Source: Ilex aquifolium
Taxonomy: Eukaryota; Streptophyta; Magnoliopsida; Aquifoliales; Aquifoliaceae
DNA length: 64,000 nt
Direction of reading: 5' to 3'
NCBI GenBank assembly: GCA_951799425.1
Contig: OX637391.1
Coordinates: 19,020,551 to 19,084,550 of the forward strand
Positions 12,101-36,033 of the stretch are shown piece after piece. The notes under the pieces are model-generated. The model made no database searches. It was not told where the DNA came from and saw only the letters and a list, made by a program, of their open reading frames with translations. A program made the position numbers and the translations under genes. Each line of letters begins with the position of its first letter. Positions within the stretch are counted from its first letter, which is position 1.

Positions 12101-13681
12101 AAGAACTAAGAAGCACGGACACATATAGGACATACAGATACAATATGATGTTGGACATGCATGCACGACATTTTTTAAAAAAGTAGGATACTGAAACTTT
12201 GGGGACATGTTACAGATAATTGTGTTTTATATAGAAAATGATATGACGTATGCATGTATAGTGATAATGATTTATTATTCATACAAAATTCAATACTTTA
12301 GGACAAATAAATGTTATGTTTAGTCATCTAGTGTGGTTTTTAGATTAAAGCATTATAATAGTCAACAATTCTCAATTTTTTTTGTGTAGACAACATACAG
12401 ACAACACATAATTTAAATGATTGTTTTCATGTTCTCAAATTTTCTTTTTAAAACTCTATTCATTTTTTATTTTTATTATTATATTTCGAGGATAACTTTA
12501 ACATGTGTAATCTTGATAGATATATATTCTTTCATAGTGTAAGATACTTATTAGACAAATATTTGAGCTTTGTTAATCACATATCAACACTAGTAGAGAT
12601 ACAACCTAAAAAAGTATCAGACACGTTTTCGAAATTTAAATTTTATTATTTAAATATGGATCACAGATAAAAAGAATAATCAACACGTGTCCAAGGAATG
12701 TCGATGTTTGACACAAACACGTTACCTTTTTGAGAGTTTTCGTGCTTGATAGCAAAAACACATTGACCAACACAAAATCCAAACCTCAATTTCCCAGGCT
12801 CAAGTTAGTCTTCTCTTCCTCGTTGTTGTTCAATCTTTCTTTCTCTCTTCTATCTCTTCTCATCTATCTTTGTTTATCTTGTTATGCAAGAAATTAGAGA
12901 GAGGAAGTGGTAGGTTTGCGAGTTTTTGCCTATGAAGCATGGATATGGATACGGGATACATGGATGATACGATACAGATATAACCATATGTTAAAATCAA
13001 AAAAATCAGAATACATCTATAATTATATATATTCTAATATTATATGTTATTTAGTGGATATTATTTTAATTGAATTTTTAATAACAAATGTTGTATGTTT
13101 AGATCTGAAAATTAAGGCAATCATTGAATTTAGCCCAATTGACAAGCAACATCACATGGAATAGGTAGTATATATTTGTTGGTTTCCTTGTTAGTTCTGT
13201 ATTTGTGGAATAAGAGTGTTTGTTAACCCAAATTCAGCACTTAAAATGAATGTATTCTGCACTCTTAATTGGTTAAGTGCCTCTTAAAAATAGGTTAAAA
13301 TATTAAGTAGTAGAGCCCTTACTTAATGTTGAATGCTGAAAGTGCTCAACAAGGGTATCTTTTATAATTTTTTCAATATGATAATTCTACCCTGACTTGT
13401 TTCAAGGTCCTATTCAAACTCTAACTGGTATTCTCTTCAAAACCCTCGATCTATCCATCCTAATTCATCGTCTCCATCTCTTTCTTCCTCCTTTCTCTTG
13501 TCTTCTTCAGCTTACCCACACACACAATCACACACAAATTTACACACACAATCACCTACACTGCAACACAAAAAATTACAGAGCTTCGCACACACTGCAA
13601 ATACACAGAATTCAAACACATTGCACACATATTTACACACACTGCAACACAGAAAATTACACAGTTTCACACACACTGCAT

Positions 13682-13735
<54 letters not shown>

Positions 13736-16700
13736 CACACACAATTGTTTATTGATGAATTTAACTTGAATTCTTGATCAAAAAAAAAAACTTGAATTAA
13801 TTTTATTATCATATTTGTTAAATTTAGACTACAATATAGTAATAGCAATTATCATATATGTTATGAATTACTTTTAGTGGTACATCACGGTTGTTTATTA
13901 GATAAATGCATATTTAATTCAAAGTAAAAAATAGAAGGATAAAACTGAAAAACTATTTATTTTTCAGATTTTAGCCCTTTGTACTTATTAAATAATTTGA
14001 TTCAATTCAATACTTAAATTTCAGATTTCAGCCCTTTGTATTTTAAATGAATTTTTAATAACAAATGTTGTGTGTTTAGATCTGAAAATTAAGGCAATCA
14101 TTGAAATTTAGCCCAATTGGCAAGCAACATCACATGGAATAGGTAGTGTATATTTGTTGGTTTCCTGATTAGCTCTGTATTTGTTGAATAAGAGTATTCG
14201 TTAACCCAAATTCAACACTTAAAATGAATGTATTCCGCATTTATTTAATTAAGTTAGTTTGATAATCAAAATTAATATCTCGTAATTTGTTAAGTGCCTC
14301 TTAAAAATAGGCTAAAATATTAAATAGGAGATCTCTTACTTAATGCCGAACGCTGAAAGTGCTCAACAAGAGTATCTTTTATAATATTTTCAATATGATA
14401 ATTCTACCCGGAGTTGTTTCAAGATCCTATTCAAACTCTAACTGGTCTTCTCTCCAAAACCCCCAATCTATCCATCTTAATTCATCGTCTCCATCTCTTT
14501 CTTCTTTCTTCCTCCTTCCTCTTGTCTTCTTCGGCTCACACACAGACACAAAAAATCACACACAAATCTACACACACAATCACCTACACTGCACACACAC
14601 TGCAACACAAAAAATTACAAAGCTTCACACACACCGCACATACACAGAATTCATACACATTGCACACATATTTATACACACTGCAACATAGAAAATTACA
14701 CAGTTTCACACACACTGCATAAACATACACACTGCACACAATTTTGTATTCATGAATTTAACTTGAATTAATTTTATTATCATATTTGTTAAATTTAGAC
14801 TACAATATAGTACTAGCGATTATAATATATGTTATGATTTACTTTTAGTGGTACATCATGGTTTTTTATTAGATAAATGTATATTTAATTTAAAGTAAAG
14901 AATAGAAGGATAAAACTAAAAAAATATTTATTTTCAATACTTAAATTTCAGATTTCAGCCCTTTGTATTTTAAATGAATTTTTAGTAACAAATATTGTGT
15001 TTAGATCTGAAAGTTAAGGCAGTCATTGAAATTTAGCCCAATTGGCAAGCAACATCACATGGAATAGGTAGTGTATATTTGTTGGTTTCTTGATTAGCTC
15101 TTTATTTGTGGAATAAAAGTGTGTTTGTTAACCCAAATTCAACACTTAAAATGAATATATTCTGCACTTATTTAATTAAGTCTGTTTGATAATTAAAATC
15201 AATATCTCTTAATTTGTTAAATGCCTCTTAAAAATAGGCTAAAATATTAAGTAGTAGAGCCCCTACTTAATGCTGAACGCTAAAAGCGCTCAACAAGGGT
15301 ATCTTTTATAATTTTTTCACTATTATAATTCTACCCTGAGTTGTTTCAAGATCCTATTCAAACTCTAACTGGTCTTCTCTCCAAAACCCCCAATCTATCC
15401 TTCCTAATTCATCGTCTTCATCTTTTTCTTTTTTCTTCCTCCTTCCTCTTGTTTTCCTCGGCTTACACACACACACAACGCGCACAATCACATAGATTTA
15501 CACACACAATCACATACACTGCAACACAAAAAGTTACACAACTTCACACACACTGCAAATACACAGATTCAACAACATTGCTTCATATTTACACACATTG
15601 CAACACAGAAAATTACATAGTTTCACACACTGCATGAACATACACACGCTGCACACACACTACACAATTTTTTATTGATGAATTTAAATTGAATTAATTT
15701 TACTATCATATTTGTTAAATTTAGACTACAATATAGTAATAGCGATTATTATATATGTTATGAATTACTTTTAGTGGTACATCATAGTTTTTTATTTGAT
15801 AAATGCATATTTAATTCAAAGTAGAGAATAGAAGGATAAAACTGAAAAATTATTTATTTTTAGATTTTAGCCCTTTGTACTTATCAAATAATTTGATTCA
15901 ATTCAATACTTAAATTTCAGTGGAAGTCAAATAGCTACGAACTAAAAAATTCAATATTCATTACTTAATATTTGTTGGAGTTATTTCCTAGTTTGTTAGG
16001 GTTTAGGGTTTTCCTCCTTATTTTACCCTTATTGTACCTGTATTTTTGACTATATATACGGGGGCTCTACAATTGGTTTGTATCCCTTTCTTTCTTCTAA
16101 ATATTTCAAGTTGGTATCAGAGCATGATTTCGATCCAAAATATATTGTAGCACCACAGTAATTTAGTTGGAGAAAGAATATATTCTTGAATTAGGGTTAC
16201 TGATTTTTTGAGGTTCTAAGGGCTGTGAATAGCGCTGAAGTACTGTTCACGCGATGTGAACAGTGCCGAAGTTACTGTTCACGCGATGTGAACAGTGCCG
16301 AATTTGACTGTTATGGGTATTTGATTTGCAAAATTATTGAGTTGATTTGTGACGAACTTTGGATTGTTTGGCGTTGGCTGTCTCCTCTCTTTTGCTAGTG
16401 TTTCTCGTTGTTTGGTCTTCCTCGCTTGAACTAGTCGTTGCAAGGTAATAAATCCTAATTACTAGGGTTTGTTGATTTTGGCTACTGCTGGTTGAGGCTA
16501 TTGGTTTGGCTTTTCTTCTTCTCTTTGTCTGATTTGGGCTTCTCTCTGTTGGGCTATTAGTTTCTCTTTGTTGGACAACCCCAATCCTTTGGGTTTGTTG
16601 ATTTTGTCTACTTGGCTATTCTTTTGTTAATTTTGGCCGTTGTTGGTCTTGTGCATTGAGGATTCGTCACGTTGTTGGTTTGTTTAATCTGTTTGTTGAG

Positions 16701-18410
16701 TCGGTGATGCTGTTTGCTGGACTGGTCTAATTGTAAGGCAGTCGGTGATGGGTCACTGACCAGCCCACTCATCAGCCCGCTGTCGGGTTGCGTTTTTTGT
16801 TGAGTGGGCTTCGTTCTTCGCACTCTTTGTTGATCTGCTTTTGATGCAGTAGATCATTTTTATATTTTCTGAATTTCTGGGCACCGTGATTTGATTATTT
16901 GGGCACCGTGACCTGATTATTTGGGAGCTTTTTTGGACCTTCTTTATTTGTCGCTATTGGTCGACTGGAGGTATATTTTTCTCCCTTATTTTATCTCTCT
17001 ATTTTGTTTTAGAGATTTCTTCGTTGATCTGCTCTTGATGCAGTAGATCATTTATTTATATTTCTTGGATTTTTGGGCACCGTGACCTGATTATTTAGGA
17101 GCTTTTTTGGACCTTCTTTATTTGTCGCTATTGGTCGACTGGAGGTATATTGTTCTCCTTTATTTTATCTCTCTATTTATTTTAGAGTTGTTTTTCTGGG
17201 CACTGTGATCTAATTATTTGGGAGCTTTCTGGACCTTCTTTATTTGTCGCTATTGGTCGACTGGAGGTATATTGTTCTCCCTTATTTTATCTCTCTATTT
17301 ATTTTAGAGTTGTTTTTCTGTCATGGGTGCCCTAGTATTATTGTTGCTATGAGCACTACTGAGGGATTTGAGACCCCTACTGTTGACACCTCTACCGTTG
17401 AGACCTCTATTGGTACTTCCACCTTTATGTTTGACCAGCGCCGTTAGGGCGCCCCAGACCAGTGCAGACATGGAGATTCTCGTCAGTGTGATTATTGTGG
17501 CCGACCAGGACATCTCAGGGCTACTTGTTAGAAGCTCCATCCGGATCTTAAGCCGTCTCCTTACGGCCGTACTGCTGCTATTTCTGAGATACCACTACCT
17601 ACTACCGTTGTTCCTGTTGCTGCTCCTACTGTTCCTCCTTGGCAGAGTGATATGGATGCTATCACATCCCGATTGGATATATTTATGTCCACTCTGACTT
17701 TTCAGGGTCCGACTTCTGCTACTGCCACCACTACAGGACCTGAGTATCAGGAGGATTATTATCAGGGGACATGAGAGAGATGAATTTGTCTTTATCTGTT
17801 CCTAGCTTGCATACTAGTATTTTACCTAATTTCTTCGAGAGAAGGTTAGCAGTAGTATTGTCACTCCACCATTTGTGGGGATCAGTGATCAGGTTGCAGA
17901 TGTTTTTACCAAACCTGTCACTCTATCCATTCTTTTGGACTCCGTTGTCAAGCTTGGCTTAATTGACATTTTTGCGCCTAGCTTGAGGGGGAGTGTTGGA
18001 GTTATTTCCTAATTTGTTAGGGTTTAGGGTTTTCCTCCTTATTTTACCCTTATTGTACCTGTATTTTTTACTATATATACGGGGGCTCTACAATTGGTTG
18101 TATCCCTTTCTTTCTTCTAAATATTTCAAGTATATTCAACACTCAGTTTTTAGTATTCAACTTTCAATTTTATCAAACAGCCCCTAAGGTAGCCACTTAA
18201 ATCTGGATGGACCCAAGTAAGAGGATTACGTAGGAGAAGAAACAATCGTTGATTTGGTTCATAGATAAAAACAAAATAAATAAAAAATGAATTGTGTTGT
18301 ACAAGTTGATAAGGACTAATCCCACATTTGGGTTGGTATGTTGGCATGTTCAAGGGGAGGACCCATATTATGGTCTTTTCTTCTGCCAAATCTCTTGCTC
18401 TCTCTCTCTA

Positions 18411-18450
<40 letters not shown>

Positions 18451-21400
18451 ATTGAAACAATCTCTCGCTTGCGCCTCTATTTCAAAATCTAGGATTACAA
18501 GAATGGCGGAAACTCCGACGAGTCTGGCCAACAATACCTTCAACTCTATTCTGGATAAGTCTCTCCTCGTGGCTTAGCGCAGTGATGATGCCGGTTGTGC
18601 TTTTGAGAGACATGAATCAAATGTCCATTTTAAGCTTCTTTTTGATAGACAGTAGACACATCGGTAATGTACTTGAAGTCTATGTTTATCTTCATCGATA
18701 TTTTTTTTTTTTGAATTGGATCATCGAGTTTGAAGACCTATATATACATGTATCCATAGACGTATTGCAAACGTATCCTGTGCATTCTCCCCTCCTATAT
18801 TTTATACGTATCTGACAGTCAAAAATAATTATATTTATAATGGGATACGTCTAGGGCGTATCTGATACGTATCAAACCTGTATCCATTTCCGATATGGAT
18901 ACAGTTAAATTGTAATTTGAAATTAGAGTTTAACAAAGAGAGAGAGGAAAGAGAGATTGAGAGAAATATTATGTGTATGACTATGTTTCCCTACACTACT
19001 TATTTATAGTAGAGAAACAATTAGATTAATTACAATATTACCTTATACTCATTAAATACGACTAATGCAAAAAATATGAACTCTTAACACTCTCTCTCAA
19101 GCTAGAGCATAAAGGTAAAAAATGCTCAGCTTGGAACATAAATTACTGAAGGCAGATCAAACTAATGGCTTGGTAAGAATGTCATTTAGTTGATCACTAG
19201 ATTTAATATATGGAGTGATAATCTCCTTACGCATCAAGAGATCTTGAATGAAATGACAGTCCACCTCAACATGTTTGATATGCTCATAAAATACATGATT
19301 ACTTGTAATAAAAATAGCATTTTAGTTGTCACAATGCATCTTTATTGGTGAAGTCACATTAATTCTCATATCACAAAGTAAAGAGCGGACCCATAACATC
19401 TGACATGCTGTATGAGTCATAGCTCGATATTCAGCCTCACCACTAGATCATGCAACCACATTTTTTTTTTTACTATACCAAGTAACAAGATTATCCCTAA
19501 TAAATGTGCAATTGCCAGAAGCAGATCGTCTATCACTATGACTACCTGTCCAATTAGAATCAGAATAACCAGTAACAGTTATGGATGATGATGGACGATA
19601 TAATTATTCTTTTCCCAGAGCTTTTTCAGATGCCAAAGTATGCGACACACAGCCTCCCAATAAGGCTTACGAGGAGCATGCATGGACTGACTAACAATAT
19701 CATGATGTGTAACTGTGAGATAAATTAGCTTACCAACTAACCTCCAATAATGTTCTATATCATCAAAAATTTATTCACTCTCTAGATTTAACTTCACTGT
19801 AGAGGTTATGGGAGTATCAACTGGATGCACACCAAGAGTACTAGTTTTAGATAGTAAATCCAATACATAGTTCCGTTGACATAAACTAATATCTTCTTTT
19901 GACCAAGCAACCTCAATTCCTAGAAAGTATCGAAGAAGACCCAAATTTTTGGTGTGAAATTGTCTCCCTAAATGAACCTTGAAGTGAGCAATACCATTTA
20001 GAGTCATTACCACTAATAATAATATGATCAACATACACAAAAACAATATAATACTCTTATCAAACCAAGCCGGTGGTGTTTTCAAGCCATACAACGCTTT
20101 CTTCAAACGACACACTAATTCTTCTTGATTTTGAACAACATAACCTGTAGGTTGACTTATATATACCTCAACCTGTAGATCTCCGTGTGGAAATATATTA
20201 TTTATATCTAGTTGATACAAAAGCTAATCACAACTTACCGTAATAGAAATAAGAACTCTAATAGAATTAAGACAAGTAACAGGAGAGAAAGTCTCACAAT
20301 AATTCACATTATATGTTTGAGTGTAGCCTTTGGCAACCAGATGTGCCTTTAAACACTCAATTGAATCATCATGATGATATTTCATAGTGTAGACCCAGCG
20401 ACAACTGACAAGGTGCTCACCAAGAGGAAGAGACGTGAGGTTCAAAGTGTGATTTTCATGGAGGGCTTTGATCTCCTCGTTCATAGCCAGTTTCCATCAA
20501 GCAGATGTCAATGTCTATTTCAAGGAGCTTGGAACAACAACAGAAAAAAAGTCTGATGCAAAACAAAAAGATGAGGAAAATCGATGCAAATAGACAAATT
20601 TGGAAATAGGATCTTGGGTAAAAGTGTGAGTACCTGTCCGCAATGCAATGGACAAATCAGAAGATGGTGATCCAATAGATGGCTCAGCAGGAAGAACCTC
20701 GGAAGAATCAGGCATTGGCCGAGGTGTTGGAGAATATGGAATAACCTGTCTGTATGTGGATCGGTGATAAACTTGCGATGAAGGGTTAGGAATTGAAGAG
20801 GAAGAAGATACACATTCGGGTATAAGAGGCAACAAGAGGTCCCCTAACTAGTAGAGATTAATTCAGGGGAAAGATCATGTCCTAACTTAGAAAAGAAGGA
20901 CGAGGACTCAAAAAAGGTAACATCAACACTAACATAATACCGAGGAGAAATAGGATCATAACAACGATAACTTATTTGAGTACGAGAGTATCCTAGAATG
21001 ACACACTTAATTAAATGTGGTGAAAGTTTATCCCACTTTGGATGAAGAAGGTGACCAAATGCAATACAATACAATCAAAGACACGAGGGGTGAGATCGAA
21101 GGGTGATGAATCAGGATAAAACAATTAGAATGAAGATTTGTTAACTATGATGGGTGATGACATCCTATTAATAAGATAAACTATGGTAAGAACAACATTA
21201 ACTCAATAAGGTTTTGGTAAATGCATGTTAAACATGAGGGTCCTAACATCTAATAAGTGACGATGCTTACGTTTTGCAAAATTATTTTGCTGGAATGTAT
21301 TATGGGGACATGTGAGCATTGTCAAAACGAAGCACTTTAATATATTTATCAAAGTGTACCAAGATCTCATTCTAGGTGGTGATAAAGACTTTCGGTAATT

Positions 21401-24400: not shown

Positions 24401-27400
24401 GTTTAGTGTTTTTCATCTACAACACTTTATTACTTCTGCAGAGATGTATAAGGGGGTGATTGGATCTCGTCTTTCTAGTAGGAGCCCTCCTCCTTCCAAG
24501 GTGGCGAGGAAAGGAGATGCCCCCCAAGTGACTTCTCCAAATGTGTCGACCGAGGTGATATCTCCTCAAACAACCTCTCTGGTGGCTCCTCGGGGGTGCC
24601 CCCATCAAGCGCCTCCTCGGGCGACGACTCTTTTATCTGTTCCCGCTACTCCGGAGACCCCTTTGACTACACTCTCTGCTCCAGGTTCCTCGACTCTTCT
24701 TGTGGGAATTCCACGAGGTGCACCGTTGATCAGCTCCATGCTGGGTAATGCACCAGTCATAAGGGATCGACTTGGGCGGTTTGTGTTTTCCGAAGATTTT
24801 ATCGGGATTAATGCCCTGGGTACGGAAGGAATTGTCCGTAATTTTTTGGAAGGCCTGGGTCAGGTAAGGGTCAGTTGCCTCCCTTTCTCTAGTTCTTTCT
24901 TAAGTTTCTCCTGACTTTTATCTTTCTTCAAGCTTGTACTGCATCCTTGTGTTTACTTTCAAGGACTTATAGTCACCATCAGATGAAGCAAGATCGTGAT
25001 GCTATGCAGAATGAGCTTCTTGCAGCTCGGGTGAGGATTGCTGAGTTTGAAGCTGCTAGAGGGGCTTCTCAGGCTGAGCTTGTGGCATCTTGTGAGAAGG
25101 TGACCGGGCTCGAGGTTGAGCTTAAGGAGGCTCGTGAGAAGATAGCTGATCTTGAGTCTGAGCTTTCGTCGACCCGTGACAGAGACGTGCTCAAAGAGGC
25201 TGAGCTTGTGAAGACCCGCGAGAGGGCCATGCTCAGTGAGGCTGAGCTTGCAAAGACCCGTGAGAGGGCCATGCTCAGAGAGGCTGCCGCGGAGGCAGAG
25301 GTGAAGGCAGCTCATGAGAGAGCTTTGCAGGCTGAGGAGAGGGCTGTCACATCTGAGAGAGATTCGATGAATGGCCTTACAGATGCCTTCATTGATGGTT
25401 ATGATGAGCTCCGAGGGAAGATCTCAGTTGCCTATCCTGATGTTGACGTCTCAGGCTTCATGTCAACTGAGGCGCCTGATAATGGTGATGGAGGCTCTGA
25501 CCAGGCTGAGGATGATGAGGAAGGTGACGAGGAGGAGGATGACGACCATGAGAGTAGCTAGAGTATTGGGGACTTTTGATTTTCTTCTTTTTTTTTTTTT
25601 TTTTAGGAAAGACGGTTCATAACCTTGCTTTTGTACTGGTACTCCTTTGAAATTGAATGAAAAATGTAAAAATCATTTTGGGGTAAAATGTAGAGAATTT
25701 TATTCATTCATTGCAATATTGGTTGGTAACCCCAAAAAAGGTAGAAAATAAAACCAAGTCCCCACTGTTTATTACTTTTGACTCTCTCAAGGTGTCATTG
25801 GTAGTACCTCTTCAAGTGTTCAGCATTCCACGGATGGAATAAGGCCTTCCCTTCAAAGTTCTGGATTTTGTAGGTGCCCGGCCTCACTACTTCTGTTATG
25901 AGGTAAGGTCCTTCCCAATTTGGTCCCAGTTTCCCTTCCCGTGCATCTTTTGTGGCGAGGATCACTTTTTTGAGGACCGGGTCCCCTGGTTGGAAGGAGC
26001 GAGGCTTCACCCTCGAATTGTAGTACTTCGTCATGCGTCTTTTGTACTCCGCGTTGCGGACTATAGCCATCTCCCTTGCCTCCTCCACCAAGTCGAGGTT
26101 GATGCGGAGTCCTTCCTCGTTGGTGATGGGGTTGTGGTGTTGGACCCTTAGAGAGTGTACCCCAATCTCCACAGGGATGACCGCCTCAGTTCCAAAGGCG
26201 AGGGAGAAAGGGGTCTCCCCAGTAGGAGTTCTTGGCGTGGTTCGATAGGCCCACAATACGCCTGGTAGCTCGTCCACCCAAAGACCCTTCGCTCTTTCAA
26301 GCCTTGTCTTTAAGTTGCGTAGCACCATTCTCACCATGACCTCTGCTTGTCCATTTGCTTGCGGGTGTGCTGGGCTAGAGTGAGGTTGTCTTATATGAAG
26401 GTCAGAGCAGAAGGAGTTTAGCAGCTTATTGTCGAATTGCTTGGCGTTATCACTAACAATGGCATGGGGAATCCCGAAGCGACAGACCAAGTTCTTCCAT
26501 ATAAAATCTTTAATCTTTACGTCTGTGATTTTGGCTAAGGGTTCGGCTTCTGCCCACTTGGTGAAATAGTCGACTGCCTTGTTTTGTCCCTTGCTGAGAG
26601 GTAAGGGGCCTAGGATATCGATGCCCCACTTGGAGAAAGGCCACGGACTTGAAATGGTTGTTAGCTCCTCCGGAGGTTGCCTGGACACAGTTGCGAAGCG
26701 TTGACACTTGTCACATTTCTTGGAGAACTCCTGGGCGTCCCTTACCATGGAAGGCCAGAAGTAGCCTTGTCTAAGCGCCTTGTGGGCAAGGGAGCGCCCT
26801 CCAGAGTGGTTCTCACAGATCCCCTTGTGGATCTCTTGCATGGCATATTGAGCTTCCTCTGGTGAGAGGCACCGCAGCAACGGCAAGGAATAGCCTTTCT
26901 TGTACAGGGTGTCTTGCAGGATAGTGAACTTGGAGGCTCTCATCCTCAGCTTCCTGGCTTCTAAAGGATCATCTGGCAGCACACCTTCTTGGAGATATGC
27001 CCTTATTGAGGTCATCTAGTTCGACTCAGCTAATGCACAGTTGACATTTGTGGTCGCCATGTCCAACCTGCTTGGCTCGAACTAGTGACCGATGAATACC
27101 GGTCCTCCTGGTGGGGCCTTCAAGGTTGAAGCGAGCCTCGCAAGTGCATCGGCCGCCATGTTGTCTTCTCTGGGGATGTGGCAGATCTGGAAGTAGTGGA
27201 ACTTTGTGATTAAGCTTTTCACCATACCAAGGTATTCTTGCATTCTGGCTCCTTTTGCTTCAAACTCGCCCTTTACTTGATTAACTACCAGCTGAGAATC
27301 GCTGTAAGTGGTAAGATGTTGGGCTTCCATTTCGGCTGCCAATCTTAATCCAGAGATGAGGGCTTCGTATTCCGCCTCATTATTGGAGGCAAGAAAATGA

Positions 27401-30400
27401 AGCTTTACTGCATACTTGAGAGTGGTGTCGTCTGGGCTGATCAAGACTAGGCCTGCTCCTCCTCCTTCGTTGGTTGAGGAGCCGTCGACGTAGAGTTTCC
27501 AGAGTGATAGAGAAGACCGCTCAGAGGTCTCTGGAGGAGGTAAGGCCATAGGTTGGGCTGCCTGGGTACCAGGCTGGGATTCGGAAGGGGTCTGGGAGCC
27601 TGAGGGAGCTGCCTAGGCGCCAGAGTGAGTCTGGGCGCCCATGGGGGCTTGCTGGACACCAGTCTGGACGCCTGAGGGTGGCTGGGCGCCAGGAGGGTGC
27701 TGGGCGCCGGAGGGAGCTGCCTGGGCGCCTGAGGGTGGCTAGGCGCCCAAGGAGGCTTGCTGGACGTCTGTCTAGGCGCCTGAGGGAGCTTCTTGGGCGC
27801 TAGAAGGGGTCTGCTCCTTTGTTGGTGTAAGCTCGGCAATGAAATCCGCCAACGCTTGTGCTTTGATGGCTGCCCTTGGTTGATACTGGATATTAAACTC
27901 TCCGAGTTCCACTGCCCACTTAAGAAGTCTACCGGATACGTCCGGCTTTCCCAAGATCCTTTTGAGAGGTTGATCTGTGATGACAACTATGTTATGACTC
28001 TGAAAGTAATGCCGCAATCATCTTGCTGTCATGATCAGGGCGAGTGCTAACTTTTCTAGCTCCGAATACCTCATCTCTGCCCCTCGGTATGCCATGCTCA
28101 CGTAATAAATAGGTTTCTGTGTTCCATTATCGTTTCTGACGAGCACTGAGCTTACTACTCATGAGGAAGCAGAAAGGTATAGATGGAGGGCTTCTTCTGG
28201 AGTGGCATGTGACAGAAGGGGGGGTGTAGCCAGGTAGGCTTTGAGCCTTCGGAAGGCCTCCTCTGCCTCAGGTCCCCACTCGAAAGCCTTTCGGAGAATT
28301 TTGAAGAAAGGGAGGCATTTGTCTGCGGACTTGGAGACGAACCTATTAAGTGCTGCGATTCTCCCATTGAGGCGCTGGAGCTCCTTGGTTGAGGAAGGTG
28401 ACTTCATGTCGAGGATGGCCTTGATCTTGTCGGGGTTCGCCTCAATTCCCCTCCGATTGACCATAAACCCAAGAATTTTCCTGACCCCACGCCAAAGGCG
28501 CATTTTTCAGGATTGAGCTTCATATGATAGGACTTCATGACATTGAAAGTTTCTTGGAGGTGACTGATGTGGTCCGTTGCCTTTAGACTTTTCACCAACA
28601 TGTCATCAACGTAGACCTCCATCGTTCGCCAAATCTGGGATTGGAACATTCTATTTACCAGCCGTTGGTAGGTTGCCTCTGCATTCTTCAACCCGAAGGG
28701 CATGACCCTGTAGCAGTAGGTCCCCTTTGGAGTGATGAATGATGTCTTCTCCTGGTCTGGGGGATGCATGTTGATCTGGTTGTATCCAGAATATGCATCC
28801 AAGAATGTGAGTAGTTCATGCCCTGCTGTGGCGTCAATGAGGAGATCAATTCGCGGTAGGGGATAACTGTTTTTTGGGCACGCCTTGTTGAGCTCTGTAA
28901 AGTCAACGCAGAGGCGCTACTTCCCGTTGGTCTTGGTCACCATTACCACATTGGAAAACCATTCAGGATATGTTACTTCTCTGACCGCCCCATTATCTAT
29001 CAGCTTTCCAACCTCTTTGTCCATAGCTTGGGCCCTTTCAGTGGAGGCGCCCCTTAGCTTTTGGCGGACAGGTTTGTGACGAGAGTCGACATTGAGGCGG
29101 TGGGTGGCGACCTCAGGGTCAATTCCCTCAAGGTCTGCATGTGACCATGCAAAAATGTCCATGTTACTTCTGAGAAAGTCTCTTAGTTGGCGAATCAGAT
29201 CTTTAGAGAGAGAAGAGCCAATGTACACCTTCTTGTCTGGGTGTTCCTCATCTAAGGCTACCGGGGTGAGATCCTCGACTGGTTCTCCTCTTTCTATCAT
29301 GGTGTCGTCCCTTGGGTCCAGGACCTCCACTTGCAACGCCTCCTGTGGTTTCCTGGTTTTCATTGAGGAGACATAGCATTCCCTTGCTGCTACCTGGTCT
29401 CCTCTGACCTCTTCGACTCCATTTGGGGTTGGAAATCGGAGGATGAGGTGATAGGTGGAGGGCACCGCTCTTAATGTGTTGAGAGCAGGTCGTCCCAGTA
29501 TGATGTTGTAGGCAGATGGACAGTCGATTACCAGAAAATTGACCATGACCGTAGAGCTTCGGGGTGCAGCGCCGGCAGTGACCGGTAGGGTGATGGACCC
29601 TAGTGGATACACCTTCTCCCCTGAGAACCCAATGAGGGGTGATCTTAGGGGTTGGAGTCTCTCCCTGCCCAGATTGAGCTTGTCATAAGCTTCTGCGAAT
29701 AGGATGTCCGCAGAGCTGCCACTGTCCACTAGGATCCTTCGTACCTGGAAGTTGGCAACAGTCATGGTGAGCACCAGAGGGTCGTCATGGGGGTGCTGGA
29801 TTCCTTCTAAGTCCTTGTCTGAGAAGGAGATGACTTCGTTGTTGCCATGCTTGGGCGCCTTGGGTGGGCGCTCATCATCAAGGTGCCTAGCTTTCCTGGC
29901 ATGAGCCTTCATGGCAGAGAGGGATTCTCCTCCTCCTGCAAGCCCTCCAGAAATGGTGTGAATCTCTCCAATGGGATGTGGATCTTCCTGATTGTGGGGT
30001 GGAGGTGGTGCTTGTCCTCTTCCGGCAACATACTGGCGAAGGTGTCCACGTTGAATGAGGTCCTCAATTTGCCTTTTGATGTCATAACAGTCATCGGTGT
30101 CGTGGCCATGGTCACGATGGAAGCGACAGTACTTGCTTGGGTTCCTGCGGTTTGGGGGAGACTTCATCCTCCCAGGCCACTTTACTGCGGGGTCATCCTG
30201 GATCTGGAACAGGATGTGCCCGACAACGGCGTTGAGGGGAGTGAAGGCTTGTCAGTCCCTCTGAGGAGCAGGACCGAGTCGGTCCTTGACAGGTACCCTC
30301 TTTGTCCTATTGTGTTTGTTACTGGTCTCCTTCTTGTCGTCTCTGTCTCTTTCCTTTCTCTTCTCCCCTGTTCTGGACGACTCACCTCGTCTGGCCCTCG

Positions 30401-33400
30401 TGATGTCCTCTGCGTTCATGTACTTTTGGACTTTGGCTAGTAGCTCTGGCATGCTCCTTGGTGGTCGCTTCATCGCCGAGAATAGGAAGCTTGACGAGCG
30501 GAGGCCTCCCAAGAAAGCAGTCATGGATATCTTGTCATCGGGCTCTTCTACCTGAAGGACCTCCTCGTTAAAACGAGTGAGGTAGCTTCTCAGGCTTTCG
30601 TCCTTGTCTTGCTTTATGCTAAGCAGGTGAGTAACGGGCTTCTGGTGGCGGCGCCCTCCAATGAAGTGCGACACGAAGGACCTGCTCAACTCAGCAAAGG
30701 AGGCAATTGAGGCTGGAGCGAGCTTGGCAAACCACTGTCGAGCGGATCCCTTCAAGGTGGTTGGGAATGCTCTGCACATGATTTCGTCGGGGACACTGTG
30801 CAGCTGCATTAGAGTTTTGTAAGTCTCTAGATGGTCCAGTGGGTCCTTCTTCCCGTCAAAAGTCTCCACTGATGGCATTTTAAACTTTTGAGGGAGGGGG
30901 TAGTTCGCCACGTCCGGCTTGAAAGGCGTGTCAGTTCGCCTAACAAGATAGTTCACAGTCTCAGGTCCTTACGCCTTCATGGCATTGAAGACGTCACCTA
31001 GCTGATTTTGTACTTCTTTGATCTTCTCGTCCCAGTGATTGGGAGCTCCTCTTGAATTGTCGTGAAAGTGGCTCCGATGCCCCATGCTTTGATTTTCACT
31101 CTCATCCTCATGGAAGGGAGGGTCTCCACCGTGAGGAGCAGGAGCTGGAGGAGGAGGAGGTTGGAGTCCCTCATGGGGAGGTCCCCCATGCTGGGCGCCC
31201 AAATGAGCTCCAAAAGTGGCGCCATGATGGGGTGCCTCCATGTAGGGAGCCTCTTGACGCCCAAGGCGTGGAGCTCCTCTCACTTGAGGTCCAGGTTGTG
31301 CTCCTCCCTGCGCAGCAAGCATTAATTGGAGGATCTGTTGGTTCTGGGCCACAAGCTCTTGCATTGTCTCCAACATCTGTTGCGCACTTGGGACAGGATT
31401 GGCCGATGGAGGAGCAACCTCCTCCTCTTGTGGTGGATTGTCTTCATGTTGGTTCATCAATCGGGTAGTGATCGTCATTGATTCACAGTGTTTAAAAATG
31501 AGAATTTTGTCGATTCCCACAGACGGCGCCAAACTGATGATGCACAAAATTGACTTTGCACACCACTAGTCAAGTAATTTGAAAATTAAGGTAGCAATTA
31601 AAGTAAAAAGTGAGAGGATTTATAGTGGTTCGGTCTATACGACCTACGTCCACTTTGGAATGGCAAAGGGTTGCTGGTATTTTATTGATTCCAGTGAGTA
31701 ATGAGAACGGAGAGTTACAGATTGGAGAGGAAGAAGAGTTTTATGCTCTGTAGGGTGTGATGCCCCCAAGTGTTGGTGGGGCTTACATTTAATAGTCAGT
31801 CCTCAACAAAATGGAGCTACTAAGTGGCCATTATTCAGCTACTCTGGTGGGATTTGCGGATTCTCCTCAACGGGTGTGGCCGTTGAGGAGCTTCCCACAA
31901 GACCGGGTCCACGTTGACTGCTTCCAAGGTGGTAGAGAAGGTAAGGGGTCCTGAGTGCTTTCTGGATCTTGTAGCCAAGCTGAGGTAGTTCCATGATGAA
32001 CTTAATTGGGCTTGGATCTCATTGGGCCTGCTGGGTCTCCATAAGTTTTAGCCTTTAATTGCAACTGGGCTCCAGTATGGTTTTTGGGCCTTTTGGGCTT
32101 GACCCATCTATGCTCATGCTCCAAACCAATCACTTTCTTTTTCCTGAGTCCTTGAAAGACATAAGAAGATAAAGAAAGGGTCACTGAACGTTGTAAAGAC
32201 ACGGTTAATTGACTTACAAATAACAAGTTAGAAGGAAAATGAGGAACAAATAAATCAGATGTTAAAGACATGGATTCACTAGGATGGAGGTCACCAGTCC
32301 CACGTACTGGTCAAAATGAACCATAAGCTAATAGAATTCGAGAGTTAGAAGAACAAAAATTCAAAAATAAGGATGAAATACCAGACATGTGAACACTAGT
32401 TCTTGAATCAATAATCTAAGATGGCGAGGCATATTGAGCTGCTACATGTGCAAAATTATCAATAGTGGCCAAACCGGTAGCTGGAGTAGACAAATGGGGA
32501 GAGAAAGAAGACAACTGTTGGATGAGCTGACTAAACTAAAAAGTAAGCTCAGAATGAGATCTAGAGGTGAATGTAATAGGTGCACCAATTGATGGCTGAG
32601 ATACAGGCGGGTTTGAGTCATATGAAACATGATTAGCATAGGCTGGTCTCCCATGTTTATCCCAACGATAATCTTCAGTATGTCTAATGGTTTCACAATA
32701 AGAACACTTCCACTCGAACTTGGAGACAAGAGTAAGCATTGGCAGCAGATGGAAGTGTCTCACTAGCCTGAATTTGATTTTTAAACACACTATACTTAGA
32801 GTTAAGGCTAGACAAGAGCAAAAAATCTTAAAACTCTTCATGTTGTCGGTGAACCTCCAGACTCTCAGTCAGTGGCTGATAAAGCATTACTTCTTCCCAC
32901 AACTCTTTCAAGGTACCATAATGTTTAACAAGTAATTTATTATCTTGCTTGGTATTGAATATACGCACAAAAAGCTCATAAATTTGAGACACATTGTGTG
33001 TGAGTACATCTACTCAAGAAAATCTCATATCTTCTTAGCAGTATCAAGAAGTTGGACATTGGAAGCTACAAATGGTTCATACTTCATACTCAGCCACAAT
33101 CAACTCATCACTAAGGAATTCTCACTCTAACAGTCTTCAGAATTTTTTGAGTCCTTAGAATGAGGACTTTCATTCAAATACTTGACTTTCTTTTTGGCTC
33201 ATAGAAAAACTTTAATCGCATGTGACCAAGAGTAATAATTGCCTTCAGTTAATTTTATTGAAGTAATTTGTCTCACCGAAACATCCATTGAATGAACCTG
33301 TCTAACTTGATCATCGACTGTAGGTGTCTTTACCTCTTTCGAAGTTGCCATAATAAACTCAAATGGAATAAAAATCAGTAGGAGAGCGAGAGGCCAATAT

Positions 33401-36033
33401 TCCACCTATCACCAACACTACACACCAAAAAAAACACCAACTATGCACTCCCAGATTGATCCACTTTGAGCAGAGAAGAAAACAAAAATGAAACAAAGGA
33501 GACAAAACACACCAATTTTGTATTCAGTCAACTATTACCAACACACCAATTAGCAATTTTAGGCCACAAACAAATACTCCCAAGACTGATGCACACATCA
33601 CATATACAAGAACCAAAAAGCTGAAGCACCAGAACAGTGCCAAAACATCGGCACTATGTACTGCCAACTCTGTCCAGCCCCCGTAAACACCAGAAATCCA
33701 CCCAAAAAACTGATGGGTAAGTCAAGAAACCCTCCTAGGATCTTAGTCGACTTTGTCTAAGGTGGATTGATGCATCAGACCAACATGGGTTACTCCCAAC
33801 AGCCAGATCCAAGAAAAACAATGAATTTTCCAGAAAAATATTTGAAAAAGGAAAAGTCAAGCAAGATGGCCTCTGAAAAAATCACCATAAATACTCGGGT
33901 AGGGAGTCGATCCAGACGGTAGGTTTCTGTCATTAGAAACTGCTGACGTAAGCATTTTCCGGCAGCCTCTCTGACGTGTCAACATTAGCATTAACTCCTC
34001 TGTTGACTGGATCTGTTCTTGTGATTAGCAAATAATTGCATTGATACCAAGTTAAATTGTAATTTGAGGTTAGGGTTTAACAGAGAGTAGAATAGAGAAA
34101 GAGGAAAGAGGGATTAAGAGAAATAATGTATGTATGGCTGTATTGCAGGCGGCAGTCTCGCCGACATGTCAACATTAACTCCTCTGTTGACTGGATCTGT
34201 TCTTATAGTTAGCAAATAATTGCATCCATACCAAGGTAAATTGTAATTTGAGGTTAGGGTTTAATAGAGAGAGAGAATAAGAGAGAAAGAGGAAAGAGGG
34301 ATTGAGAGAAATAGTAGAGAAACAATTAGAGTAATTACAATATTACCTTATACTCATTAAATATGACTAATACAAAAAATAAGAACTCTAGCAGATACGA
34401 TAACTATTTCACATATTCATGCTTCATTGGTTTTTGCACGATGCTTTGTATGTATGCTAACCTTCTATGACATCAACATGTAATTTTCTTTTATCACCGA
34501 AGAGGAAAAAAGAGTATAGCTTTCTACCAAGAAGGTAAAGAAAGACCTACACAAATTATAGAGAGATGATTTCCTTATGATCATCAACAGAAATTTTATT
34601 GCAAATAAAAATTCACTACAAGGACGAACAATCCTTAAATAAAAGGCAAAAATGAAATCCAAAAAACCAGAGCCAAATCTGAGTGCTCACAAATAACAAT
34701 TACAAAAGAGAGAGGAAGAAATTTGAGAAAGTGATTTAAATAATTTGGAAATAGACGGAGAAATGATTTAAGTGTGGATTTGCTGGAACATTAGTGGATG
34801 GCTGTGGGTGGTAGTGTAGCGACAATGGGTGCGGTAAAATGTTGAAGGAAAGAAGACAAAAGATTCAAAATATAAAAAAAGTTTTGGGATAACATTTTAC
34901 ACAAAATAAATAAATAAATAAGTGTGACCAAAGAATGTCTTAACAGCATGTGTAGCACGCACTCCGTTATTTCATATGGAAATTGTAAATTTGCAACTTA
35001 GACACAAGTACCAGGGGACTTAATATCACAAATCAAGGGTGTTGAATGTTTTCGGACCTTAGTACAACAGGGTAATTTGTATTTGGCCCTGAAGTTAAAA
35101 AGTTATTTTAGATTAGTAAAGCTACTCTGGCCCAAATAATATGGTTAGCGCTCACACAACAAATTAGAGGGCCCAAAAATATTTTATTGGTTTGTGGATT
35201 TTGCCACATCATTTGGGCTACAATTTTGGTGCCAAATTTGGTCATTTTAGATGCGTCACAACCTTGAACCCAAATGTGGTTTCTATTTTGCTTCCTAAAC
35301 TGCCCTTACCTTGGGTAAAACCCAACCAGGCCCGCCCCAATAGGGATGACATTGCAAAATTTGGTATTTGTTGGCCCAAAGAGAGGTTGTGTGCATACTG
35401 GACGGACTAAAAGTGTGCTGAAGTCATTTTTCTTAATTGAAATTTTTATGTTCATATAACTATGGTATTCCCATCATAAGGGATGATGAACATGTAACAT
35501 TTAATGCAACAGATAACGAAACGCTAACGTTCTGCTCCTGTTGAAATCCTAATGAGCCTTTTATTCTGGCAAAAAATAATTCTCATGAAGTTCCTTTAGC
35601 TTACAAACAAATGGTGGTATAAGTAATGTGTTTACTCACTAAAGACATTTAATTGCATAAGGGTCGCTAAGTCTATTTCCACACAATTCAGATTGCTGGA
35701 ACCAGGGTGAAGCTCCAAGATCATCAGTCTGGTGGTTCTGAAGGTGGTGTTGAAATCCGGGGTTCATCTGAGCATCTGAATACCACCCAGAGCATACTTC
35801 AGACCTATGCTAATACTGGTGGAGAAAACAACAATCCTCAACAAGGATCTTATCAAAACTATAATGCTGAGCAAGGTGCCTATGCAAACATCAACGCTAC
35901 ACAAACCTCTTACCAAATCAACCCTCAGCAAACCTCTTACCAGATCAACCCTCAGCAAACTCCCTACCAAACGTTCAATTCGCAGCAAGCAGCCTACCAG
36001 AACATCAGTGCACAAGGTTATTACCAGTACTAA
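1..36033 (+). CDS. KH-domain RNA-binding protein gene, 3' portion (5 exons visible)
   Basis: The gene encodes a nuclear KH-type RNA-binding protein resembling the plant At4g18375/PEPPER/HEN4 group, which acts in mRNA processing and developmental control. Exons are 1-123, 486-698, 8607-8662, 8753-8843 and 35692-36033. Phases agree at every junction (0, 0, 2, 0) and all introns are GT-AG. The first two exons give a KH domain with a GQGG loop and the EEEL-type end of the previous strand. A Pro/Gly linker follows, then a second KH domain whose core falls on the exon 4/5 junction, and a Gln/Tyr/Asn-rich tail ending GYYQY-stop. The 5' part lies outside the window. Odd points: the last intron is 26.8 kb, the final KH loop looks shortened, and about three residues expected at the exon 4/5 junction are missing. 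Family identity is confident; the exact orthologue is not. Confidence 0.85.
124..485 (+). other. KH gene intron 1
   Basis: A 362-bp GT-AG intron (donor GTGATA, acceptor after GATGATACAG). It includes a G-rich run near 341-364. No gene or transposon was recognised in it. Confidence 0.8.
486..698 (+). CDS. KH gene exon b (end of KH domain plus Pro/Gly linker)
   Basis: Seventy-one codons, phase 0 at both ends. VSGNFGVAKDALAEIASRLR completes the KH fold (the helix after the variable loop). A linker rich in Ala, Pro and Gly follows, containing ARPPPAGPIGAG and ending HYEILK before GTATTTG. The open frame continues past the donor to 758, but that extension has no family similarity and was left out. 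Confidence 0.88.
1018..1262 (+). mobile_element. TRIM (miniature LTR retrotransposon)
   Basis: Two direct repeats of about 70 bp lie at 1018-1089 and 1195-1262 and share GCTTAAGCTTTTGGAGTAGA-like sequence. They start TGTT. Just inside the first repeat is a primer-site-like TAGTATAAGAGCA, and just before the second is a purine tract GTGAGGGGGTG. Flanks TATCA (1013-1017) and TATCG (1263-1267) match at 4 of 5 positions and look like a target duplication. No coding capacity, as is usual for TRIMs. Confidence 0.7.
1634..1802 (-). repeat. 3' LTR of the young copia element
   Basis: 169 bp, TG...CA, preceded by target duplication GCATG and followed internally by the purine tract on the - strand. Identical by eye to the right copy. 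Confidence 0.93.
1810..4871 (-). pseudogene. copia pol region (integrase, reverse transcriptase, RNase H)
   Basis: On the - strand, high to low coordinate, I can recognise several parts. First comes the integrase zinc-binding zone with CEACQLSKHHR and the catalytic core starting VHSDVWGP. Next is the reverse transcriptase with GCRWVYTVK and QLDVKNAFLHG. Last is the copia RNase H tail with SSAEAEYRAMA and the C-terminal ADMFTKAL. This order (integrase before reverse transcriptase) defines Ty1/copia. It belongs to the 1634-6974 element and is a recent fossil. Confidence 0.88.
4899..5991 (-). pseudogene. copia gag region
   Basis: The N-terminal part contains LNGTNYTLWSRSAQVFLRGK, typical of plant copia gag. 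A central helical part has WDHLATMYSGTGN. A Gly/Arg-rich stretch then leads to a zinc knuckle CTHCGRGGHTVDFCWDLHG (C-X2-C-X4-H-X4-C). Such proteins form the virus-like particle and bind element RNA. It precedes the pol region of the same element. Confidence 0.85.
6010..6345 (-). repeat. degenerate CCGG-rich reiterations in copia leader
   Basis: Between the primer site and gag, a motif close to CTGAACCGGACCGGCTGG recurs many times in imperfect copies (for example near 6075, 6130, 6200, 6240 and 6305). It lies in the untranslated leader of the 1634-6974 element. Its GC content is well above that of the surroundings. Confidence 0.75.
6540..6755 (-). repeat. CCACCA/CAGACG reiterations in copia leader
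   Basis: Imperfect repeats built on ACCACCACCACTGTAGCACA and CAACAGCGACTGTA recur several times here. They lie between the CCGG-rich block and the primer site of the copia element. The short reading frames in this block are repeat-driven and were not called. Confidence 0.65.
6806..6974 (-). repeat. 5' LTR of the young copia element
   Basis: 169 bp, matching 1634-1802 base for base as far as I can see. The primer binding site (6791-6805, - strand) abuts it and the target duplication GCATG follows at 6975-6979. Confidence 0.93.
7165..8606 (+). other. unique part of intron 2
   Basis: Apart from a (TC)n microsatellite at 7903-7924 and AT-rich sequence I see no gene, transposon end or long repeat here. 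It leads to the acceptor of the 56-bp exon at 8607. Confidence 0.6.
8607..8662 (+). CDS. KH gene exon c (56-bp linker exon)
   Basis: It encodes GGGREYEPPSYPVPPSAT and two bases of the next codon. It sits between acceptor ATGAAG and donor GTAATG. The Pro/Tyr linker is what the family has between KH domains, and the phase (0 to 2) matches the next exon. Confidence 0.82.
8753..8843 (+). CDS. KH gene exon d (start of the last KH domain)
   Basis: After acceptor TTCCAG the frame gives GFQNIRHFMELRIPNNAVN then SGMVSGRNNIGE before GTGAGT. The MELRIPNNAV strand is typical of the last KH domain of this family. The RNA-binding loop, normally G-X-G-G-X-N-I, reads S-G-R-N-N-I and so seems about two residues short. 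Whether the domain still binds RNA cannot be told from sequence. Confidence 0.8.
8844..9935 (+). other. intron 4 sequence before the first insertion
   Basis: Mostly unique AT-rich DNA with pyrimidine-rich tracts near 9140-9260. The overlapping reading frames at 9022-9520 have no recognisable domain. I see no transposon ends I can defend. Confidence 0.55.
9936..10316 (-). repeat. left LTR of the 9936-12035 element
   Basis: About 381 bp. It shares GAAATATTATTGA and TTGATTAAAACT blocks with the right copy and has flanking ACCTT. Confidence 0.8.
11672..12035 (-). repeat. right LTR of the 9936-12035 element
   Basis: About 364 bp, with the primer-site-like sequence just to its left and ACCTT just to its right. 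It aligns along its whole length with 9936-10316. Confidence 0.8.
12106..12752. mobile_element. small hAT-like element (candidate)
   Basis: The ends are imperfect inverted repeats: CTAAGAAGCACGG at the left and, reversed, CTATCAAGCACG at the right. They resemble the ends of the larger element at 12930-34429. The inner flank is rich in GGACA/GTGTCC-type motifs. The 8-bp flanks CAGAAGAA and CAAAAACA match only at 5 of 8 positions, so the target duplication is not secure. There is no coding capacity. Confidence 0.35.
13071..15920. repeat. three tandem units of about 0.93-0.98 kb
   Basis: Units start at 13071, 14048 and 14975, each opening with TGAATTTTTA(A/G)TAACAAAT and containing the same landmarks in order. 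These are CATCACATGGAATAGGTAG, a CTTAAAATGAAT block, a pyrimidine tract, a CACACA-rich segment, and an AT-rich tail ending AATACTTAAATTTCAG. The third copy stops at 15920. The units lie inside the 12930-34429 hAT-like element. Reading frames of His-Thr repeats in them come from CACACA and are not genes. Confidence 0.85.
13684..13733. repeat. (AC)n microsatellite
   Basis: About 25 uninterrupted AC units in the first of the three tandem units. The matching place in the other two units is short or absent, so it expanded after the duplication. Confidence 0.95.
15973..16108 (+). repeat. 5' LTR of short copia derivative
   Basis: 136 bp, starts TGTTGGAG, contains TATATATACGGGGGCTC (a TATA-like core), ends TTTCA. 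The primer site lies directly downstream (16111-16126). Confidence 0.88.
16242..16296 (+). repeat. two tandem perfect hairpins in the leader
   Basis: ACTGTTCAC-GCGAT-GTGAACAGT occurs at 16242-16264 and again at 16274-16296 (32-bp period). Each has 9-bp perfect arms around a 5-base loop. A decayed third copy may precede them near 16225. They lie about 130 bases after the primer site of the 15973-18128 element. Confidence 0.85.
16876..17315 (+). repeat. about three tandem copies of a ~120-170 bp module
   Basis: The module runs from GGGCACCGTGA through GGACCTTCTTTATTTGTCGC and TGGTCGACTGGAGGTATAT to TTTATCTCTCTATTT. It begins near 16880, 17074 and 17197. A TTGATCTGC-CTTGATGCAGTAGATCA segment is also duplicated (16832, 17025). 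The array lies in the untranslated leader of the short copia derivative. Confidence 0.75.
17994..18128 (+). repeat. 3' LTR of short copia derivative
   Basis: 135 bp, preceded by the polypurine tract AGCTTGAGGGGGAG. It differs from the 5' copy at a handful of positions. Confidence 0.88.
18186..18902. other. right-hand subterminal part of the hAT-like element
   Basis: It contains a (CT)n(AC)n microsatellite (about 18396-18451). A 25-codon open frame beginning MAETPTSLANNTFNS (18503-18577) has no known homologue to me. From about 18740 there are nine copies of GTATC/GATAC in either direction, ending at the GATAC target of the copia insertion. The 18129-18185 piece next to it ends AAACAGCCCCT, like the tip of another small hAT element. 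Confidence 0.55.
18903..19089 (-). repeat. left (3') LTR of old copia
   Basis: 187 bp from AGTTAAATTGTAATTTG to CTCTTAACA, followed internally by the pyrimidine-rich complement of the polypurine tract. Confidence 0.8.
21760..22335 (-). repeat. 3' LTR of gypsy/Tat element
   Basis: 576 bp. On + it begins TGATGATGCACAAAATTGAC and ends GACCCATCA, with target duplication ATGCT to its left. Confidence 0.92.
22558..22565 (+). promoter_or_regulatory. TATA box for the antisense gene
   Basis: TATAAATA lies 257 bp before the ATG at 22822, on the strand opposite to gag-pol and just inside the 3' LTR. A pyrimidine-rich stretch follows, which suits a transcription start near 22590. This is a sequence match only. 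Confidence 0.5.
22822..25561 (+). CDS. antisense accessory gene of the gypsy/Tat element (putative gypsy-type transposon family protein)
   Basis: It is encoded opposite to gag-pol, between integrase and the 3' LTR. The N-terminal ~170 residues are Gly/Ala/Leu repeats (LGAIGAG, PLGATLGEK). The middle has a conserved block with VCGILNYFSLTPGRLTPNGW and FLELWRKV, which I recall from the plant family described as putative gypsy type transposon (Transposase_28-like). The C-terminal ~200 residues (24959-25561) form a long coiled coil with repeated AELAKTRERAML and an acidic tail. Short GT-AG intervals between the parts suggest it is spliced, as antisense Tat genes often are. Function is unknown; whether it is whole cannot be decided here. 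Confidence 0.7.
22855..23320. repeat. GGCGCC-rich minisatellite-like array
   Basis: About ten GGCGCC palindromes sit within 450 bp, in a degenerate context of CTGGGCGCCACTTTGGGCGA and similar. It encodes the Gly/Ala-rich N-terminal repeats of the antisense gene. Similar motifs recur at 27540-27790 and near 31190-31230 in the same element. Confidence 0.8.
25795..30170 (-). pseudogene. gypsy/Tat pol region
   Basis: From high to low coordinate: an aspartic protease zone with VDSGSSADILF near 29.7 kb; a reverse transcriptase zone at about 28.4-29.0 kb with FITPKGTYCYRVMPFGLKNA and YVDDMLV; and a gypsy RNase H zone with AFEWGPEAEEAFRRLK. Next is a second, plant/archaeal-type RNase H at about 27.1-27.5 kb (LYVDGSSTNEGGGAGLVL). 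Then an integrase at about 25.8-27.0 kb has a His/Cys zinc site (CDKCQRFA) and WGIDILGPLPLSKG. The reverse transcriptase-before-integrase order defines Ty3/gypsy. Broken fossil. Confidence 0.88.
27540..27790. repeat. second GGCGCC-rich array, inside pol
   Basis: Seven GGCGCC palindromes in about 180 bp lie between the two RNase H zones. Their flanks (CTGGGCGCCAGGAGGG, CCTGAGGGAGCT) are like those of the 22855-23320 array. The reading frames across it are Pro/Ala-rich (AP and PQAP repeats). Confidence 0.75.
30200..31500 (-). pseudogene. gypsy/Tat gag region
   Basis: A Gln/Pro-rich N-terminal part is followed by a capsid-like zone with ETFDGKKDPLDHLETYKTLM and FPTTLKGSARQWFAKL. A charged Arg/Lys-Glu stretch comes next. 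A zinc-knuckle-like CRFHRDHGHDTDDC occurs just downstream at the start of the pol zone, usual in Tat elements. Confidence 0.83.
31517..31534 (-). other. primer binding site of the gypsy/Tat element
   Basis: On - it reads TTTGGCGCCGTCTGTGGG, abutting the 5' LTR. The TGGCGCC start is common in plant Tat/Athila-type elements. Confidence 0.8.
31535..32109 (-). repeat. 5' LTR of gypsy/Tat element
   Basis: 575 bp, about 2% different from the 21760-22335 copy. It is followed by target duplication ATGCT at 32110-32114, where the old copia resumes. Confidence 0.92.
34050..34393 (-). repeat. right (5') LTR of old copia, with an internal duplication
   Basis: It aligns with 18903-19089 but is longer. 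The LTR start and the adjoining leader (TCCTCTGTTGACTGGATCTG, present near 33990 and again near 34176) are repeated before the rest of the LTR. The last part, to CTCTAGCA, matches the left LTR end. Confidence 0.75.
34438..35691 (+). other. intron 4 sequence after the hAT-like element
   Basis: Unique AT-rich DNA. Around 35110-35270 phrases such as GCCACATCATTTGGGCTACA and TGCCAAATTTGGTCA resemble the Mutator-like MITE at 38099-38281, so a decayed relative may lie here, but I cannot fix its ends. The stretch ends at the acceptor ATTCAG. Confidence 0.5.
35692..36033 (+). CDS. KH gene terminal exon (KH domain end, Gln/Tyr-rich tail)
   Basis: It has 113 codons and a TAA. IAGTRVKLQDHQSGGSEGGV completes the last KH domain, followed by the closing helix with SEHLNTTQSILQTY. 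The tail has about 60 residues of Gln, Tyr, Asn and Ser with near-identical 10-residue repeats (INPQQTSYQ twice, then variants). This is the kind of low-complexity tail that can drive RNA-granule assembly, which is inference here. Phase 0 fits the donor at 8843. Confidence 0.85.
   Translation: MAGTRVKLQDHQSGGSEGGVEIRGSSEHLNTTQSILQTYANTGGENNNPQQGSYQNYNAEQGAYANINATQTSYQINPQQTSYQINPQQTPYQTFNSQQAAYQNISAQGYYQY

Follow-up and report, generated by a model that had tools for sequence, protein, structure and literature searches.

The window is the whole 64,000-bp stretch of Ilex aquifolium DNA analyzed here; it sits in contig C1 of a genome that was searched as 800 Mb in 103 contigs. It was found that its central part carries transposable elements nested in one another between two inverted ends. 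The features are as follows (positions are those of the window; TSD, target site duplication).

12922-12929, no strand, left 8-bp TSD GTTTTTGC, read directly outside the left end
12930-13213, plus strand, left end of the hAT element (12930-13014 is 79% identical to the family consensus)
13062-15920, plus strand, three head-to-tail units starting at 13062, 14039 and 14966, 92-93% identical in aligned bases
13214-18184, plus strand, PIF/Harbinger-like (Tourist-type) non-autonomous element, originally about 0.9 kb, with TSD TAA at 13211-13213 and 18185-18187
15973-18131, plus strand, 2.16-kb LTR element with LTRs at 15973-16111 and 17994-18131 and TSD ATATT at 15968-15972 and 18132-18136
18188-18902, plus strand, right part of the hAT element (18730-18902 resembles the right subterminal region of the family, with GATACG-type repeats)
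18903-34393, minus strand, copia element of 5.1 kb without the gypsy element, with TSD GATAC at 18898-18902 and 34394-34398
21760-32109, minus strand, gypsy element within the copia element, with TSD ATGCT at 21755-21759 and 32110-32114
34399-34429, plus strand, final 31 bases of the hAT element, split from the remainder by the copia insertion
34430-34437, no strand, right 8-bp TSD GTTTTTGC, read directly outside the right end

The original prediction was that the inverted ends and an 8-bp duplication of a hAT-like transposon bracket 21.5 kb, and this proved exact to the base: the bracket measures 21,500 bp. The left end reads CTATGAAGCATGGATATG from position 12930, and the right end, whose reverse complement is CAATGAAGCATGAATATG, runs up to 34429; 16 of the 18 bases agree and two differ. 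These are the sole two sites in the window with up to four mismatches to the left end. Seven more sites have five mismatches, one of them inside the bracket at 21401. When the 18-mer was shuffled, 298 of 300 controls had no plus-strand match at three mismatches or fewer. The agreement of the two flanks ends after 8 bases, and the adjoining flanks showed no wider repeat of which the 8-bp match could be a part. Because the 8-mer GTTTTTGC is not rare (four on the plus strand and five on the minus strand of the window, and about 87 per Mb in the DNA fetched from the genome), the duplication alone is weak evidence. Combined with the inverted ends, it is strong evidence. In genome searches, the left flank (12757-12929) had no second match, the right flank (34430-35030) matched a single other place in part (109 bases, 74%), and no empty site for the insertion was seen by these flank searches within this genome. 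The stretch at 12330-12756, left of the insertion, is a numerous repeat whose main matches are 69-79% identical (best 40 of 370 candidates scored).

Do such ends occur elsewhere in this genome? The exact 19-base left end was found at five places. The 17-base end CTATGAAGCAYGGATAY occurs 954 times genome-wide (494 forward and 460 reverse), against 0 occurrences of the reversed pattern used as a control. The window ends are members of a real family in this genome. A 132-base left-end query was searched against the genome, with the best 40 of 162 candidates scored and 30 of the 40, including the window, delivered as loci. I examined 30 loci outside the window (L002 and L004-L032) for end pairing, accepting a pair when its 8-bp TSDs agreed within two mismatches. 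In 28 of them the partner end lies 241-653 bp away, and one more copy measures 3,681 bp, so that 29 of the 30 have both ends and the 8-bp duplication. Thus, the two ends do occur together in other copies, which was the main point on which the original prediction could have failed. Its expectation of copies of 1-4 kb with 8-bp duplications was borne out for the pairing and not for the size, as only the 3,681-bp copy among the 29 falls in that range. The TSD is exact in 23 of the 28 short copies versus 0 of 756 crossed left/right combinations. Agreement within two mismatches, seen in 28 of 28, is the selection rule itself; it is found in 32 of the 756 crossed combinations. As 29 of the 30 loci were picked as best left-end matches, the right-end pairing is independent, while the divergence figures lean to conserved copies. 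In the remaining locus, L012, no partner end was found in the ca. 4.5 kb fetched; its consensus match runs to position 450, and it looks like a truncated copy. The first 100 listed matches to CTATGAAGCAYGGATAY, all on C1, contain 32 facing pairs less than 30 kb apart, every one spanning 460-659 bp, and 36 ends without an exact partner. A literature search with part of the end sequence returned unrelated animal and cell work in the sources seen, which does not mean that the family has never been published. One paper, PMC3517528, concerns a hAT MITE family in Drosophila.

The 3,681-bp copy (L071:52-3732, which is G000:C19:24704201-24707881 and the copy whose one end is L019) has both ends exact and an exact TSD, GTTAGAAC. 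Its two open frames are 535 and 184 residues long, and its domains above the cut-off are DUF659 (E 7e-49) and Dimer_Tnp_hAT (E 1e-14); the transposase link comes from this one copy. No match to the 535-residue frame was found among solved structures. Judging from these domains, this copy is a candidate transposase source for the family, and the bracketed element, which shares its ends, is assigned to the hAT superfamily, as originally proposed. Within the window bracket, no significant hAT transposase was found (best tblastn E 0.33, within the gypsy element). Many other hAT domains were also seen in the genome, with the best 150 of 1,396 candidates scored. Among 28 target sites of the family, 20 carry T as the second base and 23 carry A as the seventh. 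The window TSD shares the T, but its seventh base is G; a match to the family profile that is as good or better is reached by 4% of random 8-mers. An nTnnnnAn target preference is given for hobo and Hermes in passages of PMC3276498, PMC8961557, and PMC10368747. The inverted ends, 17 bp in the family and 18 bp with 16 agreeing in the window, are inside the 5-27 bp stated for hAT elements in a passage of PMC10741241.

The hAT element itself is small. Subtracting the layers from 21,500 bp (15,496 bp for copia, gypsy, and TSD; 2,164 bp for the small LTR element and its TSD; 2,807 bp plus a 3-bp TSD for the Harbinger-like element, tandem copies included) gives a remainder of about 1,030 bp. The original prediction implied a hAT element of 3.9 kb, having read the composition as hAT, copia, and gypsy only and missed the Harbinger-like element, the triplication, and the separate insertion of the small LTR element; 2.81 of the 3.84 kb of non-retrotransposon DNA is Harbinger-like. 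Taking the whole 3.84 kb as hAT was ruled out, as the family met by a search with the tandem unit is another one, also numerous, whose copies begin at the Harbinger-like end. The left 85 bp are 79% identical to the consensus in the window and 83-100% in the 28 copies from which the consensus was built. Eight of the 18 left-end substitutions are CpG losses, with 10 CpGs in the consensus and two in the window, which may reflect methylation decay. The 79% identity and the CpG loss imply that this copy is old or of a divergent subfamily. The family match is limited to about 85 bp on the left and the right subterminal stretch, and the interior is unique; thus, it would be a divergent member. The family consensus aligns with the window right end across the joined copia gap, and GATACG-type repeats number four and 11 in the two window hAT ends versus 0.04 and 0.11 expected from shuffling.

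In genome searches, 13062-13204 had no match apart from its own tandem repeats, and 18208-18700 had no other match. The latter consists of a CT/CA microsatellite followed by ATGGCGGAAACTCCG..., a 5′-UTR-like start with a short open frame. DNA and protein searches of the genome for a second copy of the ATGGCGGAAAC... stretch returned only itself. This segment might be the start of a host gene captured by the non-autonomous hAT element, the parent gene having since been lost or diverged past recognition, although I consider such a capture unlikely.

Inside the left part of the hAT element lies the Harbinger-like element, which has grown through the tandem triplication and a later insertion. When the tandem unit and the sequence to the right of the small LTR element were used as queries, numerous copies were found, which match only within the Harbinger-like limits, give or take some bases. 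According to a passage of PMC10741241, PIF/Harbinger elements duplicate 3 bp, TAA or TTA. Matched right ends are followed by TAA or TTA in 11 of 11 loci (L048-L058); L052 has a second end, with TAG after it. Four of the five both-ended loci outside the L046 array have matching 3-bp flanks (TTA, TAA, and TTA, with ATA in L045), and those of L038 are mismatched; the count leaves out rows of L039, L044, and L046 that pair an internal repeat with a right end, as well as the rows of the L046 array. That array, around G000:C2:43515763-43518187, has Harbinger-like ends in head-to-tail order, separated by few bases or none, and looks like a small tandem array of the MITE. In the window, each of the three tandem units consists of about 150 bp of hAT DNA and the left part of the Harbinger-like element, with 7-8% divergence in aligned bases and 53-143 gap columns. 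The hAT/Harbinger junction is common to all three; thus, the triplication came after the entry of the Harbinger-like element into the hAT element. The window copy shares with PIF/Harbinger (Tourist-like) MITEs the TAA/TTA duplication, the ends GGGTGTGTTTG and CAAACACCACC, and the many copies. It differs from them in being tandemly triplicated along with flanking hAT DNA.

The small LTR element sits in the Harbinger-like tail. Its LTRs (138-139 bp) are identical at 136 of 138 aligned bases with one gap, a divergence of 1.4%. No polymerase frame was found in it, as there is no open frame of at least 120 residues inside. The primer site TGGTATCAGAGC, which I take to be a copia-type marker, adjoins the left LTR, and the element is probably copia-type. 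With the element removed, the Harbinger-like tail aligns at 80-84% identity over at least 160 bases with one or two gaps in six of 20 loci compared (L048, L050, L051, L053, L054, and L057). In most other loci the alignment over the insertion point is less identical, more gapped, or shorter, and L038, L039, L041, and L045 gave no single alignment over it. The figure of about 17.6 kb of copia and gypsy DNA in the original prediction fits once the 2.16 kb of this element is added to the 15.49 kb of the copia-gypsy pair, which does not reach it by itself.

The copia and gypsy elements were as predicted, with the GATAC and ATGCT duplications present at their borders. The copia element retains an RVT_2 remnant at 19771-20220 (E 3.5e-23). 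Its left LTR is about 187 bp and the right one holds an internal duplication; they align with 11 mismatches in 184 aligned bases and 161 gap columns, so their divergence of about 6% is approximate only, because the gaps break the alignment. The right-hand copy at 34043 reads GATACCA-AGTTAAATTG, close to the GATAC-AGTTAAATTG on the left. Counting the left GATAC as part of copia was ruled out, since the hAT consensus requires GATAC there. The gypsy element has gag, RVT_1, RNase H, and integrase domains, and its LTRs of about 575 bp are 98.1% identical (11 mismatches in 574 aligned positions, one gap). There are also plus-strand frames inside this minus-strand element: 22822-24165 matches Transposase_28 (putative gypsy type transposon), and 24947-25561 had no domain match.

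A strict age order of hAT, then copia, then gypsy had been proposed. The nesting supports it, and the entry of copia is dated by it; the arrival of the hAT element at this site is not dated so strictly. The history branches, because LTR elements inserted twice, separately and into different host elements. One branch runs from hAT to the Harbinger-like element to the triplication, and the other from hAT to copia to gypsy; nesting gives no mutual order of the two. The small element is likewise unordered against the triplication by nesting, because it sits in the Harbinger-like tail outside the tandem units, and its 1.4% LTR divergence suggests that it came later. The divergences (7-8% between units, about 6% between copia LTRs, 1.9% between gypsy LTRs, and 1.4% for the small element) agree with the nesting. 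They suggest similar ages for the triplication and the copia insertion, and a recent entry of the gypsy and small elements. All of these ages are relative only, because no rate is available for this genome.

Very probably, the locus began with the cut-and-paste insertion of a non-autonomous hAT element, about 1.03 kb long, which was later filled by the nested layers. Its insertion would have duplicated the 8 bp GTTTTTGC. The family of mostly 0.46-0.66-kb copies was presumably mobilized by transposase from copies like the 3.68-kb one. The window copy would then have ceased moving, with the loss of most CpGs in its left end. Its left part was entered by a Harbinger-like element, after which a segment across the hAT/Harbinger boundary was tandemly triplicated. 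The small LTR element inserted into the Harbinger-like tail. Independently, a copia element entered the hAT element 31 bp from its right end, and the gypsy element then entered the copia element.

Could the two ends be those of two different copies of the same family that flank the segment by chance, with a coincidental 8-bp match? The family is numerous, with its 954 end matches. Among the 100 listed places on C1, two outward-facing pairs of neighboring ends are 6.5 and 24.7 kb apart; thus, neighboring copies at such spacing exist. However, none of the 756 crossed pairs of real elements agreed exactly over 8 bp, and the bracket contains no further end with four mismatches or fewer, only the five-mismatch one at 21401. 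Moreover, the hAT sequence that stops left of copia at 18902 resumes at 34399 with one GATAC, matching the family consensus. Such chance flanking has a very low probability. It is also very improbable, if slightly less so, that the ends are not of hAT type but come from a different superfamily that duplicates 8 bp, such as P elements or Mutator-like elements (here with 8 bp in place of 9). Many hAT elements start CA-type, and the end CTATGAAGC is unlike the usual hAT start; the first bases are CTATG in the family and CAATG at the window right end. P elements duplicate 8 bp too, and their site GTCCGGAC in a passage of PMC3276498 shows the same T2 and A7. Since both hAT and P elements have this preference, it is the transposase that decides between them. 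A hAT dimerization domain and DUF659 are encoded by the 3,681-bp copy, which shares the ends and has an exact TSD, and by these domain matches the non-hAT reading appears largely refuted.

The hAT element might instead have arrived loaded, already carrying the Harbinger-like element or more, so that the nesting order would not be the order of arrival at the locus. The TSD shows just that the bracket came together or was filled later, and the coding copy is 3.7 kb, so a hAT element of 2-4 kb could probably move. On the other hand, hAT elements are typically less than 5 kb according to a passage of PMC10741241, and an arrival with copia and gypsy on board, at more than 16 kb in all, is unlikely. 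No second copy of the hAT interior was found in the genome, although cut-and-paste need not leave one. A loaded arrival is thus assigned a small chance, and filling in place after insertion is the preferred reading.

With a hAT element as its outermost layer, the locus is an ordinary, well-preserved, and unusually readable nested stack, all within known biology. Plants commonly have both nested stacks and hAT MITEs; nested retrotransposon stacks of the maize type were reportedly described by SanMiguel in 1996. As in those plant stacks, LTR elements lie within LTR elements within an older transposon, each layer with its own duplication. Unlike them, this stack has a small DNA transposon on the outside, and one of its layers arose by tandem triplication and not by insertion. 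The family resembles MITEs of the hAT superfamily (Ac/hobo-type) in its short inverted ends, 8-bp duplication, and T2/A7 preference, as well as in its many short copies, the repeats inside the ends, and the hAT domains of a long copy that shares those ends. It differs in that the window copy is 1.03 kb with a single-copy interior, against 0.65 kb for the family and 3.68 kb for the coding copy, and in that the window copy is interrupted and presumably dead. The locus is of value as a relative-dating record of five elements and one tandem triplication, whose order is largely readable from nesting and whose divergences are concordant. In addition, this genome has provided an abundant hAT MITE family and a coding copy that shares its ends.

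Other features of the window lie outside the bracket. On the minus strand, gag, integrase, and RVT_2 frames are found at 2191-5894 within 1634-6974, a segment bounded by a 169-bp direct repeat that is 100% identical (1634-1802 and 6806-6974). This segment is probably another copia element, and the identity of its repeats implies that its insertion is likely very recent. Two more minus-strand frames, 52360-52845 (cytochrome P450) and 61022-61426 (ALG6/ALG8 glycosyltransferase), are probable exons of host genes.
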